From: a virus
Length of the DNA: 64,000 nucleotides
Reading direction: 5' to 3' (one strand)
IMG/VR virus record: IMGVR_UViG_3300019776_000564
Coordinates: 1 to 64,000 of that record
Below the pieces are notes generated by a model. It made no database searches and had not been told where the DNA came from. It saw only the letters and a list, made by a program, of their open reading frames with translations. A program made the translations under genes and the position numbers. Shown in pieces: positions 6,843 through 37,621 of this stretch (the first letter of the stretch is position 1; each line of letters starts with the position of its first letter).

Positions 6843-7429
6843 GCAAACTCATTGGCGTTGTAGGTGTAATGGGAACGGGTAAAACCACTCTCTGCGCTGA
6901 GAGCGGCTATGAGTTCATCAAGACCGACGTGTCCGGGATATATAAGCGAAACAACCTTGATCCTAAGGTGTTTATGGATTTCGATACTCGTCTGCGGATT
7001 CAGGAAGAGATTCTTGAGTACCACAGCGATATCTGGATGAAGGCTAAAAATGACTCGATGACGGTCATGATCACTGACAGAACGCCGCTTTGTTTCATGG
7101 CGTTCACCCTTGCAGAGATTAGCGGTTATGGATCGCTAACAGAAAAGCAGGATCAGGATCTAAAGAGCTACATTCATCGGTGCTGGTTGGCTATGAAGCT
7201 TTTCGACGGCATCGTGTATCTCAGTCAGTCATTCACGCCTCCTGTAGACCTCTCTGGGAAGGTTCGAGCCTCTATGTCATATGGTTATCGAGAACACTAC
7301 GATAACCTTCTGAAGGGGCTTATGAGCGACATGGATGCTTATCTGGCTAAGTGCGACACATCCGATAAGATTGCAAGGCTTTCGCGCCTTCATCGGTTTG
7401 TTCGCTATGTGAACTGGGTATCGACTTAA
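6839..7429 (+). CDS. P-loop nucleotide/nucleoside kinase-like protein
   Basis: 196 aa, GTG start overlapping the upstream TGA. A Walker A motif (GVMGTGKT, residues 9-16) is at the very N-terminus, as in deoxynucleotide kinases. ITDRTPLCF near residue 80 resembles the DR-containing substrate lid of thymidylate and dNMP kinase families. Located at the end of the dNTP-supply cluster, so a dNMP or nucleoside kinase is the best guess. A generic AAA NTPase cannot be excluded. Confidence 0.65.
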   Translation: MSKLIGVVGVMGTGKTTLCAESGYEFIKTDVSGIYKRNNLDPKVFMDFDTRLRIQEEILEYHSDIWMKAKNDSMTVMITDRTPLCFMAFTLAEISGYGSLTEKQDQDLKSYIHRCWLAMKLFDGIVYLSQSFTPPVDLSGKVRASMSYGYREHYDNLLKGLMSDMDAYLAKCDTSDKIARLSRLHRFVRYVNWVST

Positions 7430-7459
7430 CGCCCATGTAAGCCCTCAGTAGAAAAGTTA

Positions 7460-7492
7460 GACTGTCAGCTATCAAAGTGACAGTCTTTTTTA
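7460..7492 (+). terminator. Rho-independent terminator closing the nucleotide-metabolism cluster
   Basis: GACTGTCA (7460-7467) pairs with TGACAGTC (7478-7485), followed by six T's. The next ribosome-binding site (AAGGAG) starts just beyond. Confidence 0.85.
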
Positions 7493-7509
7493 TTGAAGGA
7501 GAACAAGCA

Positions 7510-8205
7510 ATGCCAGCAGCTAAACCAGCAGTAAAGAAAACTCCGCTGACAACCAAGCAAAAAGAAATCATCACCAACTCTGTGTGCATGGCCCTGTCCA
7601 AGCAGGTTCACGCGGAGACCTGGGAAAATGTCTGCAATGCCTTCGATCGTGGCTTCAAAACGTTCTTTGACGAGATCTACAAGACGCCGGATCAGAAGGC
7701 TGCAATCGAAGTTCTTGTCAGGGATAGCCTTGTAGAAATTATCCCGAGCGTAGAAATCAGGGACTATGTGAATTTCCACATCGTCACCATTGACGCCGGC
7801 ATTGAAGAGTTCAGCGTCGAGACGGGCATCGGCTGCGGCAAGAACTACAGCAAAGGCAAGACGATCATCAGCGGGCGATCAATGGTAGGTATGAAGGGTA
7901 AGTGGCCCAACTTCATCTCCGAAAAGATCAAGTACGCAGGCGATGAGTACGAACCGCTTCGTAAAGCGATGCTTGAGGATGTGACCAAGCAGCTTCTGCC
8001 TTATAAGAAGTATGCCCATGTTGCTCGCGTAACCAGAGCTACTGTTCACGGCTCTAAGTACGTTGAGGATCTCAAAGCCGACATGCCGGAGATCGCTGAT
8101 CTCATCAATGAAGTAACCAAAGTACCTCCACCTGTGCCGACAGTTATCAGCCCTGCAATCAGCGCCTCTCTGTCCTCCCTGTCGCCTATTCGAGTTTGCG
8201 AATGA
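7510..8205 (+). CDS. Hypothetical protein, 231 aa
   Basis: I chose ATG 7510 because AAGGAG lies 9 nt upstream; an in-frame GTG at 7477 falls inside the terminator hairpin. The N-terminus is Lys/Ala/Pro-rich (PAAKPAVKKT) and the C-terminal 35 residues are Pro/Ser-rich, framing a central folded part with a Gly-rich stretch (ETGIGCGKNYSKGKTIISG). No family recognised. Overlaps the next gene by 4 nt. Confidence 0.75.
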   Translation: MPAAKPAVKKTPLTTKQKEIITNSVCMALSKQVHAETWENVCNAFDRGFKTFFDEIYKTPDQKAAIEVLVRDSLVEIIPSVEIRDYVNFHIVTIDAGIEEFSVETGIGCGKNYSKGKTIISGRSMVGMKGKWPNFISEKIKYAGDEYEPLRKAMLEDVTKQLLPYKKYAHVARVTRATVHGSKYVEDLKADMPEIADLINEVTKVPPPVPTVISPAISASLSSLSPIRVCE

Positions 8206-8597
8206 AACGTTTATTTAAGGATGTTCAATTGGTTCTGACATCGGCGATCACCCTGGCAATCGGTCTGGCTTTTGGTGCTGTAATTGGCTCAGCGCTTGTA
8301 GATAAGCCTAACGAAAACGAAACGAGGGCGGCTCAGAACGAGCTTTGCCTCAAGGCCAACATGAAGCCTATTCTCGAAAAAGGCGAAATCGTCTGCTCTC
8401 CAAGTGAGGGCATTCAGTTGATCCGCGACTTCTTTGACACAAAGATGGCTAGCATTGTGATCGCTGAAAAGCTGCGACAAGAAGGCTTCCGCCCTAAAGG
8501 TGACGTGAACTGGCCTTCTGATAAAAAGGAAGACTTCAGGAAGCTGAACCCAATTGACCCAAACAGCTTTGAAACCAAGTCTAAGGTCACTGAGTAA
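8202..8597 (+). CDS. Small membrane-anchored hypothetical protein, 131 aa
   Basis: ATG 8202 overlaps the upstream stop (ATGA). A single hydrophobic helix spans about residues 10-32 (LTSAITLAIGLAFGAVIG) after a basic N-terminus, and the remaining 100 residues are hydrophilic. It could be a membrane anchor or an uncleaved signal. Function unknown. The next ATG shares one base with its stop. Confidence 0.75.
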   Translation: MKRLFKDVQLVLTSAITLAIGLAFGAVIGSALVDKPNENETRAAQNELCLKANMKPILEKGEIVCSPSEGIQLIRDFFDTKMASIVIAEKLRQEGFRPKGDVNWPSDKKEDFRKLNPIDPNSFETKSKVTE

Positions 8598-8959
8598 TGA
8601 ACGCATCTGAAGCCTTTTTGAAGTTCTGCAAGAAGAAAGGTATCAAGCCTAACGGTCAATTTGCTGAAGAGAATGGCTATCTATTCGTTGAGGGCTACAA
8701 GGTCGGTCACAAGACTGCAAGCGACCGAGTGCTGAAGTTCCAGCGCATGAGCAAAAAGGCTTCTCAAATGCAGCTTGAGGAGCACACAGAGGTTCTTGAG
8801 AAGTTCCTCAGGGTTTATCAGGCCGCTATTGCAGTCGTCAAAAGTGAAATTGCGGATGTAGCTGTTCATCCGTGTGACGAGAACAATGAAGAGGTGAAAG
8901 CTAAAAAGCTCCCACCTCTTCTTTCCGACCTTTACGAAGCGCTCAAGGATGTCCCTTGA
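8597..8959 (+). CDS. Hypothetical protein, 120 aa
   Basis: The start TAATG overlaps the upstream stop. Lysine-rich N-terminus, with a helical central part containing QMQLEEHTEVLEKFLRVY. No recognised domain. Part of a chain of six tightly packed genes from 7510 to 9818. Confidence 0.75.
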   Translation: MNASEAFLKFCKKKGIKPNGQFAEENGYLFVEGYKVGHKTASDRVLKFQRMSKKASQMQLEEHTEVLEKFLRVYQAAIAVVKSEIADVAVHPCDENNEEVKAKKLPPLLSDLYEALKDVP

Positions 8960-30077: not shown

Positions 30078-31208
30078 AGGATAGAACCACATAGGGAATG
30101 CGTAGAGGTGTAGAGAGGTATCTGTAGAGAACCATAGAGATATGCAGCGTAAGAAAGACCTGTAAGGAAGGGCGTGGTTCCTATAGAGGTGTAAGGGGTT
30201 GATGTAAGGAAGGAGGGGTGGTGTGTATTCAATTCACTGTCTCTATCTACCATCACAGGCCAAACCTTACAGTCTGAGTACGGTCTATCTAGCTCAGGCA
30301 CACATGACGGTCCACCTAATCCCGGCACACAGACACACCTACGCGTGATAAGCAGAACCTTCTGATAAGTACAGAGGAAGCCATCCGGTAGCCTCTGTAC
30401 CTCTAACACTTACCTCTCTTCTCTCTATAGACTTCACTCATCAGCTAGAAACAAGCGTAGACAAGCAGCTAGCAGACACAGTGGGAAGCGCTCTGAAAGC
30501 TCGCACAAGCGACGAACCAGATTTACAGATATCAGAGCGTAGACAAGCAGAAGAAAGAGCTTCCCAGCGTGTTACAGAATCGAGCCAGGATAGGGCGCAT
30601 ATACTATCCCTCTCTCTTACTCCGCCTGAGGAGTATTCAAGACCACAGTCATTCCCTCTCCTTTATGACTGTGGTCTCTTTTTATCAGCAAGCCCGGGAC
30701 TCCACGGGCGCCGCGGCTTTAACAAACACCATCTCTACCCAATAAGACCCAAGCCCCAACAGTGCCGCGGCTAGCTTTAATAAACGCCGGGCCGTGGGAC
30801 ACCGAGTCCTTGGTAAGATTGGAGCCGCGGCAAGCCACTCTATGGATAGATTTGGGAGAACCAGAAAAAGGCTATAGGTGCCGTTATATATCACCAAGGT
30901 GCGTGTTTACCGCGGGGATAAGAGATAGGCATTACCAAGAGATAGGTAAGAGGCTTGCCAAGGCGTTTAGCCGCGGGAGCCATGTTTACAAATGTTGGTT
31001 TATTCACCGTCTGCCAAAATTTCTCTTACACAGGCACAGAGGTTAAACACGGCTTATACGGTGATAGAGGTGAAAGCAGGCTGAGATAGGTCTACCGCGG
31101 CGGGTATGATGCCTAACCTTGGTTGTTTGAACCACCCGGTATGCCGCGGCTCGGCGGTGTTAAAAACCATAAAACAGGTACTAAACAGGCTACCGGATAA
31201 CACCACTT
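30078..31208. other. About 1.1 kb non-coding, repeat-rich tract
   Basis: I see no gene with a ribosome-binding site here. The left part (30078-30240) is purine-rich with many TAGAGG/GTAAGG repeats. A GTACAGAGG/CCTCTGTAC hairpin lies at 30369-30400 and a strong terminator at 30641. From 30711 on there are seven CCGCGG sites. Two phrases recur in the gap at 34.1-34.7 kb: CATGACGGTCCA plus CCCGGCACACAG (30303-30332 and 34114-34143), and an AAAAAGGCTATAGGTGCCG phrase (30865 and 34684). Confidence 0.7.
30641..30684 (+). terminator. Strong rho-independent terminator
   Basis: GACCACAGTCAT (30641-30652) pairs perfectly with ATGACTGTGGTC (30665-30676), followed by TCTTTTT. It lies in non-coding DNA, so it must end either the 29237-30077 transcript or a non-coding RNA. 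Confidence 0.85.
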
Positions 31209-34042: not shown

Positions 34043-34309
34043 TCTGGCTTTTAAACACAGCCGTGCCGCGGCAAACCTATAGTAGAGGTAGTCCACGGTC
34101 TATAGGCACTAGGCATGACGGTCCATGGACTCCCGGCACACAGGTCATGCGTGTATGGTTCTCTTAAGCCGTTCTAAGAGGTTTACCGCGGCGCGTCCTT
34201 GGGCCGACCCGGGTTAGTCTTCTAAACGCCTCCTAGTGCCTCTCTGAGAGCTTTAAACTGCTTGTATAGCAGCGTCAGACTGCTACCAGACATTGAGAGA
34301 GGCTCCACC

Positions 34310-34631: not shown

Positions 34632-34761
34632 AGCTATCTCAGAGCCGCGGTAAGCCGATCTCAGCCAATATCAACCTTGGTCCAAAAAAGGCTATAGGTG
34701 CCGAATATAGGTATAAGGCGGGCTTTGGACATATGTGGTGTAGTCCCGCGGCGCTCTCAAA

Positions 34762-34979
34762 TGAGAATCATTCTCAGGGGCGCTGCGAATCGTTCTCATT
34801 CGCGACCGCGGTTGAGACGCATTCTCAAATGCAAATGATTCTCATTCTCAAATACGAATGATTCTCATTTCACTCAAATGAGACGCATTCTCAAATGCAA
34901 ATGATTCTCATTTTCAGACAATAATCGTTCTCATTCTCAAACAAGAATTTATCTAATTCTCAAGTGCGAATGATTCTCA
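34762..34979. repeat. Array of ten Fur-box-like 7-1-7 palindromes
   Basis: Each copy has the form TGnnAAT-n-ATTCTCA. Centres are near 34769, 34791, 34820, 34837, 34860, 34886, 34903, 34926, 34955 (degenerate) and 34972. The first is perfect: TGAGAAT C ATTCTCA. Spacings run 22, 29, 17, 23, 26, 17, 23, 29, 17, so triplets of boxes repeat; 34813-34846 and 34879-34912 are identical over 34 bp. The form resembles the bacterial Fur operator (TGATAAT-n-ATTATCA). Confidence 0.85.
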
Positions 34980-35088
34980 ACACCTGTCTTCTCTTATTAC
35001 ATGCGCACGCGCGCAAGTAGCACAGCAAATTAGAATGAGCAAGAATTTTTTAGTTATATGCTTATGCTTTTCCGATCTATCAAATATC

Positions 35089-35102
35089 TAATAATCGCTT
35101 GC
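35089..35102. promoter_or_regulatory. Degenerate copy of the 14-bp pseudo-palindrome
   Basis: TAATAATCGCTTGC, 12/14 identical to TAGTAAACGCTTGC. It overlaps the -35 box of the next feature. Confidence 0.4.
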
Positions 35103-35126
35103 ATCAAAATCTAGTTAGTCTAATAT
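35099..35126 (+). promoter_or_regulatory. Sigma70-like promoter before gene 35207
   Basis: TTGCAT (35099-35104), 16-nt spacer, TAATAT (35121-35126). The leader is then about 75 nt. Position and strength fit an early gene transcribed by host RNA polymerase. Confidence 0.65.
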
Positions 35127-35206
35127 TCAACTCAAGCGACGCAACAACGCGACGCTAACGAAGTAGCTCAATAACGAAGCTACTCACTTCTAGAGAGAGA
35201 TATAAA

Positions 35207-35761
35207 ATGACTCAAGTTAACGCTAAAGCTGTAGCTAACAAAGAAGCTTTTGAAGTTGTTGCAGCTGAGTTTGCTGCAACTAAAGAGCAAGCAAGTGCGC
35301 AAGCTGCTCAAGCTCAAAACGACGAAGAGCGTAAAGCGTTTGCAGATGCTGCTAAAACAGCGTCTACACACGAACGCTACACTAACGCACTTGCTAACAT
35401 GAGCGAAAAAGCGCTCGCAAGTTTGAACAAGTACAAAATCAACGCTACTGAACTTGCTAAACAATCGCGTGAACTGAAAAAGCGCTCTATTGCGATCATC
35501 GAAGCGATTGTAACTAAGCAACGCGTTAACGATCGCGCACTTGACGCAGTGTTACAGTACATCGTCGCTAAAGACGCTGCGAGCATGACGCTTGAGCAAG
35601 TGCGCACGCAAATGCAGCACGAAACTACTACGCAAGCGCAATACTTCAAAACTTGCGCAATCTTTTTCAACTTCGCGCAGTACTCTAAGTCTGAAAAGAC
35701 TATCAACTTCAACAAAGACGCTACTGTCTTGAAAGAGTTGATCGCGATCTACACTGTGTAA
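35207..35761 (+). CDS. Gly/Pro/Trp-free helical protein, 184 aa
   Basis: Coding inside the GG/CC-free island, so it has no Gly, Pro or Trp at all. Ala is very frequent and the protein is predicted almost wholly helical (EAFEVVAAEFAATKEQASAQ; HERYTNALANMSEKALASLN). The ribosome-binding site is AGAGAGA, lacking the usual GG. Own promoter upstream and terminator downstream suggest strong, separate expression. No family recognised; composition would hide homology. Confidence 0.85.
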   Translation: MTQVNAKAVANKEAFEVVAAEFAATKEQASAQAAQAQNDEERKAFADAAKTASTHERYTNALANMSEKALASLNKYKINATELAKQSRELKKRSIAIIEAIVTKQRVNDRALDAVLQYIVAKDAASMTLEQVRTQMQHETTTQAQYFKTCAIFFNFAQYSKSEKTINFNKDATVLKELIAIYTV

Positions 35762-35771
35762 CAGTGTGCGC

Positions 35772-35806
35772 AAGCGCTCTAGAACGTCTCTAGAGCGCTT
35801 TTCTTT
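35772..35806 (+). terminator. Rho-independent terminator without GG or CC
   Basis: AAGCGCTCTAGA (35772-35783) pairs perfectly with TCTAGAGCGCTT (35789-35800), followed by TTCTTTTC. The stem is built from alternating GC and CT/AG steps, so even the terminator keeps the island's rule. Confidence 0.88.
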
Positions 35807-35829
35807 TCTAGTCTGAGTGAGACAACGCA

Positions 35830-36129
35830 ATGAACAAGCAAATCGCTGTAAACGCGCTACAGAGCGCTACAGAGCAAGCGCTGCTAGACGTGCAAGCTAG
35901 CGTGCTGCATATGCTACAGAATCGTAGTGCTGAGACGTACTATCAGCACGCACAAGCGCTGCGACATACGCTCACATACGCTAGCACTGAGTATGTGTTT
36001 AACGCTGTTAAACGACACGTGCAGCGCACTACAGCGCAACGTGTGAGCATGAAGCAAAGTATCAGTGTATTGCGCAGTGATATACGCGCTGCTATGCGTG
36101 CAGATAAGTATTCATTGTTTGCACACTAA
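35830..36129 (+). CDS. Gly/Pro/Trp-free basic helical protein, 99 aa
   Basis: No Gly, Pro or Trp. Rich in Gln, Ala, Arg and His (RHTLTYASTEYVFNAVKRHV; QRTTAQRVSMKQSISVLRSD), net basic, probably all helical. The region before ATG is GAGTGAGACAACGCA, a ribosome-binding site without GG. A small basic helical protein could bind nucleic acid. No family recognised. Confidence 0.8.
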   Translation: MNKQIAVNALQSATEQALLDVQASVLHMLQNRSAETYYQHAQALRHTLTYASTEYVFNAVKRHVQRTTAQRVSMKQSISVLRSDIRAAMRADKYSLFAH

Positions 36130-36170
36130 GTTATTTAAACTTTTCTCTTCTTACTTGTGAGTATATGCAA

Positions 36171-36497
36171 ATGACTAAAGTATCGTTCTCTAACGTTATC
36201 GCTGACGCTTTCAGCGCTGAACAAATGCAAGATATCAGCAAAGCAGACTATAACAATCTGCTTTCTATTCTCGACATAAAGTCAAAGTATATCGAGTTTG
36301 TTAATAACGCTGAGTGCATGCACTTGCTTATTGTGCATGATGCGCGCAATAACAAGTATGAAATTGTTAGTGTGTATATCAGCGCTAACTTAGAGCATTA
36401 TCAAGTAACGTTAGTTGATACTTGCGATACACTGTCAGACGCATATAACGAACTGCATAATTCGTTGCAACTTCTACTCAGTGAGTGCGACAACTAA
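36171..36497 (+). CDS. Gly/Pro/Trp-free acidic protein, 108 aa
   Basis: No Gly, Pro or Trp. Start ATG 36171 chosen because GTGAG lies 9 nt upstream; ATG 36165 is only 3 nt from it. Unlike its neighbours it is acidic with beta-forming stretches (MHLLIVHD; YEIVSVYISANLEHYQVTLV), so a folded alpha/beta protein is built without Gly or Pro. No family recognised. Ends just before a 20-bp hairpin. Confidence 0.8.
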   Translation: MTKVSFSNVIADAFSAEQMQDISKADYNNLLSILDIKSKYIEFVNNAECMHLLIVHDARNNKYEIVSVYISANLEHYQVTLVDTCDTLSDAYNELHNSLQLLLSECDN

Positions 36498-36505
36498 GTT
36501 AGTTG

Positions 36506-36555
36506 CTTACTTACACTTTTCTAAGTTGTCAAAGTCTTAGAAAAGTGTAAGTAAG
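36506..36555 (+). terminator. 20-bp perfect hairpin at the island's right edge
   Basis: 36506-36525 and 36536-36555 are perfectly complementary over 20 bp (core TTACACTTTTCTAAG / CTTAGAAAAGTGTAA), loop TTGTCAAAGT. There is no T-run. The first CC appears 7 nt later, so the hairpin marks the island's end. Confidence 0.6.
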
Positions 36556-36599
36556 ACGTGACCCTACTCCCTTCTAAATCCCGGATACCTGCACTCTAA

Positions 36600-36684
36600 C
36601 CTTACACAGGTAGGTAGGAAGTTCCCACACGCTCTCCTTACACAGGTAGGAACAGGTTCACAATACAATCCCTTACACAGGTAG
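36600..36684. repeat. Three iteron-like direct repeats
   Basis: CCTTACACAGGTAG occurs at 36600-36613, 36636-36649 and 36671-36684, spaced 36 and 35 nt, all in the same direction. The 36498-36779 gap has no gene. Confidence 0.85.
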
Positions 36685-37560: not shown

Positions 37561-37621
37561 GACAACTAGAAACGACGCACGCTCTTTAACAGACAAAGCA
37601 GTTGATAGATAGGTATTGGAG

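Follow-up and report, generated by a model that had tools for sequence, protein, structure and literature searches.

A conserved phage operon free of GG and CC dinucleotides, with variants of the rule among its relatives

The operon and its surroundings

The window, i.e. the whole 64-kb stretch of DNA analysed, is part of a 108,018-bp virus record and carries a small operon of three genes on the + strand, from which the dinucleotides GG and CC are missing. The features of the locus are listed below, GGB standing for GG followed by C, G or T and VCC for its reverse complement.

34755 to 34979, no strand: eight repeats of about 22 bp, TCTCAAATGAGAATCATTCTCA-like, in the left flank, upstream of the operon
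34983 to 36560, no strand: longer stretch free of GGB/VCC (first tier of the rule), 0 against 122 expected
35074 to 36561, no strand: GG/CC-free island (strict rule), 0 GG and 0 CC, about 137 expected
35099 to 35126, + strand: sigma70-like promoter TTGCAT-N16-TAATAT, assigned by eye; position conserved in relatives
35207 to 35761, + strand: ORF1, 184 aa, without Gly, Pro or Trp; helical hairpin and predicted C-terminal winged helix (residues ~110-183)
35773 to 35809, + strand: intrinsic terminator downstream of ORF1, AGCGCTCTAGA/TCTAGAGCGCT with a T tract, GG/CC-free; same place in relatives
35830 to 36129, + strand: ORF2, 99 aa, basic, 27-31% identical to the ORF2 of relatives
36171 to 36497, + strand: ORF3, 108 aa as translated (110 aa from an alternative ATG two codons upstream, at 36165)
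36506 to 36555, + strand: right-edge inverted repeat with perfect 20-bp arms (36506-36525 and 36536-36555), enclosing the end motif
36528 to 36540, + strand: end motif GTCAAAGTCTTAG, conserved where strict islands end on the right
36600 to 36684, + strand: three CCTTACACAGGTAG copies, 35-36 bp apart, in a GG/CC-containing leader beyond the island

Recounting gave zero GG and zero CC at 35074-36561, against about 137 expected from the island's own base composition, in line with the initial annotation, which had put the expectation at about 140. The GG/CC-free run comprises 1490 bases, bracketed by CC at 35072 and CC at 36562, and its runner-up in the 64-kb window measures 173 bp. As had also been claimed, the three proteins (184, 99 and 108 aa) contain no Gly, Pro or Trp, and both the terminator and the AGAGAGA ribosome-binding site conform to the rule. 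As a synonymous control, the codons of the three proteins were redrawn 2000 times according to the codon usage of this phage. ORF1, ORF2 and ORF3 were then expected to contain 41, 20 and 16 GG/CC, and the minima over all draws were 26, 8 and 7, whereas none was observed. This supports strong purifying selection acting, as had been proposed, below the codon level.

The flanks return to normal at once, as initially described: the 200 bp to the right of the island show an observed/expected ratio of 0.99 in the window, and they are GG/CC-rich in most relatives (1.2-1.6 vs about 0.8 genome-wide). To the left, a GG/CC-rich non-coding stretch lies 200-600 bp away, and CCRYGG palindromes reach 31-fold over the genome in the left flank. 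We considered these palindromes as ORF1 operators and rejected them, because other non-coding gaps of the early region are full of them too; being unspecific, they were not used as operator evidence. Their clusters lie in non-coding early gaps of the window (30702-31144, 34066-34186 and 34645-34806), often with AAAAAGGCTATAGGTGCCG-like elements, and at 7274-7611, 8589-8699 and 9174-9296 of L002.

Some further observations concern the neighbourhood. The repeats at 34755-34979 consist of TGAGAATNATTCTCA-type inverted halves and are Fur-box-like; their counterpart in the related contig L014 has TGCGGATNATCCTCA-type repeats, a similar element with GG/CC. A boxA-like GCTCTTTAACAGA is found at 37581 of the window, in the leader of a downstream gene. 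Many genes of L011 and L012 (ZY21) are strongly depleted of TA, down to 2 vs 29-30 expected per 700 bp.

Conservation and variation of the rule among relatives

Searches with ORF1 matched the Pseudomonas phages ZY21, phiK7B1, Nican01, nickie and hairong (all Nickievirus) as well as IMG/VR contigs. By core genes and gene order the phage of the window belongs with Nickievirus (terminase 94%, DNA polymerase 83%, many early genes shared), and its ORF1 is 74-78% identical to that of Nickievirus. Ten phages, comprising Nickievirus members and IMG/VR relatives, have a strict island of 876-1490 bp at the equivalent position; nine islands contain no GG/CC and one, in L016, contains a single exception, ACC in codon 5 of ORF1. 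Besides that of the window, the GG/CC-free runs measure 1108 bp in ZY21, 1115 in phiK7B1, 1083 in Nican01, 1137 in nickie, 1125 in hairong, 1072 in L013, 1069 in L014, 1292 in L015 and 876 in L016. Island coordinates differ between phage records; Nican01 has been classed as long DTR (PMC11256456).

The layout of the strict islands is constant: a promoter of the TTGCAC-N16-TAGAAT type, a leader, ORF1 and an intrinsic terminator come first, then another small ORF (two in the window, which also has ORF3), a hairpin and the end motif GTCAAAGTCTTAGA, past which GG/CC returns within a few to a few tens of bases. Conservation across lineages does not extend to ORF2, and ORF3 was not seen in the islands of relatives. 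The 3' UTRs obey the rule up to the terminal hairpin (0 GG/CC in 514 nt in total, 30 expected), Nican01 and L013 having one GG each in the hairpin loop. For the terminal hairpin, Rfam returned chance matches only. The island is one transcription unit, from promoter to terminator or end motif.

We also inspected the end motif by eye for an antisense promoter and saw no convincing -10. To the right of the island, the relatives have CCTTACACAACC-type repeats spaced by 36-41 bp, and a conserved element (...GTGGCCCTATTGGCGCC..., a possible RNA hairpin) precedes these repeats past the end motif (e.g. L013 1727-1775); the equivalent region of the window had no match in Rfam.

We then placed the observed ORF1 differences at random, in comparisons with 70-231 differences. 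Random placement predicts 19-50 new GG/CC, and 0 or 1 were observed, although ORF1 diverges among relatives by up to 231 of 546 bases, with identities down to about 47-55%. The rule is therefore kept through synonymous and amino-acid change alike: it is maintained by selection over a long divergence and is not a frozen inherited sequence. The purge thus reflects conserved selection, not chance.

The rule is tied to ORF1. SSU5, of a phage-plasmid group that has its genome backbone in common with the window phage (terminase, CobS/CobT-like, Pol III alpha, ParB-like and ABC proteins), has neither ORF1 nor the island. A plasmid search yielded no ORF1 homologue, and the search of host chromosomes yielded one, the only homologue found in a cellular genome: a decayed copy in Halomonas (L068), which is not purged of GG/CC. 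L068 (Halomonas sulfidaeris AP019514.1, ~1.92 Mb) is a prophage-like remnant whose copy of ORF1 is frameshifted. The genomes scanned held no other comparable runs, except a 331-bp GG-free run in the AT-rich T5.

When the GG/CC words were split by their third base, two tiers were recognized; promoters were assigned by eye in this analysis, so that the left edges are post hoc. In strict islands the span free of GGB/VCC starts 40-304 bp ahead of the -35 and lasts until the operon ends; about 99-129 are expected per island (L016 being the one exception). The corresponding span of L020 is likewise free of them (83 expected). GGA/TCC, on the other hand, are barred only downstream of the -10: in the ten phages, 20 occur upstream of or inside the promoter (about 35 expected) and 2 downstream of the -10 (about 235 expected). 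At the left edge GG/CC reappears already in the promoter spacer. Across 34983-36560 of the window a single GG/CC occurs, a TCC at 35071 that lies ahead of the promoter. GGB is thus avoided more strongly than GGA, and sensitivity is greater in the transcribed part. The simpler notion of an exempt promoter, with a rule limited purely to the transcript, was dropped, because GGB/VCC avoidance covers the promoter and upstream DNA.

That the strictest part begins close to the -10, at the opening of the transcription bubble, and that untranslated parts are affected too, would suit a mutational origin, i.e. a process that mutates GG/CC in a highly transcribed unit. We nevertheless hold this to be the least probable reading of all, since no other phage operon is affected on both strands and since C and G are retained in GC and CG contexts (GC observed/expected 2.1 in the island).

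The rule itself varies with ORF1 lineage. In L018, whose ORF1 is about 27% identical to that of the window and which retains the AAAGTCTTAGA core of the end motif, GGC, GGG and GGT together number 0 vs 55 expected and ACC, CCC and GCC 0 vs 59, while GGA (12 vs 15 expected) and TCC (15 vs 14) are normal: its rule excludes GGB/VCC from both strands and demands nothing further. In its sister L019, GGB is avoided in the mRNA sense (3 vs 52 expected), with VCC at 42 vs 68. L020 and L063 are nearly strict, and their 2 and 4 exceptions, like the one in L016, indicate that a single GG/CC is not lethal. One-sided avoidance was also found in genes other than ORF1: a 78-aa gene adjoining the island of L014 has 0 GG and 18 CC, as does its apparent homologue in L063, and a leftward (divergent) 97-aa gene of L020 has 0 GG and 6 CC in its own sense. 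The 78-aa genes (L014 3983-4355, L063 3720-4124) follow the one-sided rule in a second transcription unit, the GG-free stretch of L014 extending to the terminator. The strand symmetry initially ascribed to the rule is thus true of the window and of strict islands but not of the family; the symmetry of the window is one state, and other lineages depend on the third base or on the transcribed strand.

These variants bear on what the purge might escape. Word avoidance is in itself known, for restriction sites, PAMs, T5 and mRNA interferases. The initial annotation had suggested escape from an attack on early DNA, which could be mounted by the host through a CC/GG PAM (type I-F, NGG Cas9) or a restriction or nicking enzyme. 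T5 offers a precedent: its first-step-transfer DNA, an early-expressed segment, is purged of EcoRI sites, a word attacked before the products of the segment act. T5 differs, however, in missing a single 6-bp site, whereas here the word has 2-3 bp and the boundary is that of an operon; the first 14 kb of T5 contain no GG/CC-free island. GG is also the PAM of several type II systems and of type I-F (PMC4246573), but PAM depletion in phages is reported as a weak, genome-wide shift (PMC4246573), against a local zero here. Moreover, GG/CC-dense DNA lies immediately beyond the island, the boundaries are operon-shaped, L018 tolerates GGA/TCC, and L019 and the three neighbouring genes are one-sided; PAM or restriction avoidance would deplete the words regardless of transcription units and on both strands. 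Defence nucleases and CRISPR therefore do not fit, and we consider host attack quite improbable. A DNA-entry segment, also suggested, found no support either, as the purged DNA coincides with one promoter-to-terminator unit.

A somewhat better candidate, though still unlikely, is a chemical modification of GG/CC in phage DNA that would hinder RNA polymerase, leaving the first operon, free of targets, readable by the host enzyme. It would account for the double-stranded symmetry and for the lineage-specific third-base rules, and base modification decides which DNA is transcribed in T4 (PMC2988021). The strand-specific cases argue against it, as does the fact that no modification enzyme was recognized in ZY21: none was found among its 93 proteins in Pfam, nor among the best 25 families listed in PHROGs and NCBIfam, and its thymidylate synthase looks canonical.

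The ORF1 protein

Among the early genes of ZY21, only ORF1 occurs in each of the five carrier lineages examined while being absent from SSU5. Pfam and PHROGs gave no significant match for ORF1-3, and ORF1 has no sequence relative in the PDB, so that none of these searches placed it in a known winged-helix family at the sequence level. An AlphaFold2 model built with nine family members (pLDDT 95) predicts a long helical hairpin at the N terminus, then a helical middle part with an invariant SRE-KKR and, from residue 110, the topology H-S-H-H-S-S-H, which contains the H-S-H-H-S-S wing topology of winged-helix DNA-binding proteins; the helix at 142-153 carries an invariant TxTQAxYFK. Consistent with this, Foldseek retrieved MarR, SarA and ArsR-type winged helices at the domain level (MepR, Rot, HmgR, CadC and SarA; probability 0.80-0.98, no E below 0.3, TM at domain level only), and a single full-length match, an uncharacterised viral protein (E 5e-4, TM 0.5). 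ORF1 is thus predicted to hold a winged helix. The net charge of this segment is only about +1, which is atypical of a general DNA coater.

A weak fold match of ORF1 to a RepL-domain viral protein and the direct repeats on both sides of the island could be taken to indicate a special replication segment, for instance one without primase start sites or with an origin inside a rep-like ORF1. This is very improbable in our view: the boundaries track promoter and terminator, and one-sided avoidance takes its sense from the direction of transcription, as in the leftward gene of L020.

An exemption at the RNA level deserves more weight, while remaining rather unlikely: a phage or host ribonuclease or RNA-binding factor would attack GG (in most lineages also CC) in RNA, and the mRNA of the operon would be purged to survive this global attack. 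Self-exemption of this kind is known from mRNA interferases (MazF and MqsR, for example): their target word is scarce in, or absent from, the transcripts that encode them. The mRNA-sense GG avoidance in L019 and the neighbouring genes of L014, L063 and L020 would follow, and the boundaries agree with the transcript, 3' UTR included. However, GGB/VCC avoidance reaches 40-300 bp upstream of the promoter, and the exact reverse-complement symmetry of L018 (GGB and VCC zero, GGA and TCC normal) suits double-stranded DNA. MazF and MqsR act on RNA words of 3-7 nt, whereas here the word is GG/CC and upstream DNA is included; no RNase signature was recognized in ORF1, and its model resembles a winged helix and not a known RNase fold. 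The RNA version is better than a DNA version on the one-sided genes and worse on promoter-upstream DNA and L018 symmetry.

A possible self-exempting operon

The operon probably has to escape something that acts on GG/CC. The agent in question must recognize GG (GGB most readily), act on the operon, be coupled to transcription and shift its specificity with lineage; that it would attack every transcription unit with GG/CC and spare this one alone is best explained if the unit encodes it or must work during the attack. Perhaps it is the operon's own DNA-binding protein. Since ORF1 is the constant gene and a predicted DNA binder, we propose ORF1, or a partner, as the GG reader; this role, its effect on transcription and the purpose of shut-off are what we infer from the comparisons above.

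The explanation that we put first, tentatively, is that of a self-exempting early operon: its product, or a factor working with it, would block transcription by way of the GG word, and the operon itself lacks that word. Our reserve concerns this mechanism and not the phenomenon. ORF1, a small and probably strongly expressed protein with a predicted winged helix, or its partner factor, would recognize GG on DNA in an orientation-dependent manner, best when followed by C, G or T and less well as GGA, and would block or arrest transcription through GG-bearing DNA, with the outcome that host and probably other early transcription would be shut off. As GG occurs every ~20 bases per strand of ordinary DNA, only a word-free operon would be fully expressible; because this operon would have to stay expressible from promoter to terminator, GG and CC, and with them Gly, Pro and Trp, would be excluded. 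Arrest instead of termination, in which a stalled polymerase holds up those behind it, would explain why the 3' UTRs are purged.

In favour of self-exemption we count the strict islands in ten phages, the operon boundaries, the shift of the rule with ORF1 lineage, the presence of ORF1 in all carriers and its absence from the island-less SSU5, and the predicted winged helix. An rRNA-like boxA (GCTCTTTAA; GCTCTTTAACAAT-like) in the ORF1 leader of L014, L016, L019, L063 and L068 would also fit a unit built for transcription under obstruction; the leader of the window and of close Nickieviruses has no such GCTCTTTAACAAT-like boxA. Other results are less readily accommodated: the winged-helix segment has little net charge, L016, L020 and L063 carry exceptions to the rule, GGA/TCC is tolerated in the promoter but barred from the transcript, a difference that simple occlusion would not predict, the one-sided GG avoidance in the non-ORF1 genes of L014, L063 and L020 points to the RNA or the non-template strand, and self-exemption gives no account of how the other phage genes are expressed.

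The agent proposed here would resemble Alc of T4, an early protein that halts RNA polymerase at frequent sites when the DNA is of one class but leaves another class alone (PMC2988021). Alc tells the two apart by the modification of cytosine, whereas here a sequence word would make the difference. A literature search found no precedent for such an island, in agreement with the initial annotation. What is new, i.e. not described in anything found or known to us, is a conserved, operon-bounded near-zero of two dinucleotides, with three amino acids lost and with evolving variants of the rule; nor did we find any description of a rule that mutates along a phage lineage, from GG to GGB and from two-stranded to one-stranded.

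Whatever its identity, the agent recognizes a word of two or three bases, in DNA or RNA, very faithfully, and its action is linked to transcription. That a phage protein reads GG on DNA as a genome-wide stop for RNA polymerase, its own operon being immune solely through its rewritten sequence, is doubtful but conceivable; if true, self and non-self would be encoded in sequence at dinucleotide resolution. If ORF1 is the agent, it would represent a new class of transcription shut-off factor with a sequence-based self-mark, and its natural variants would allow its specificity to be mapped directly.
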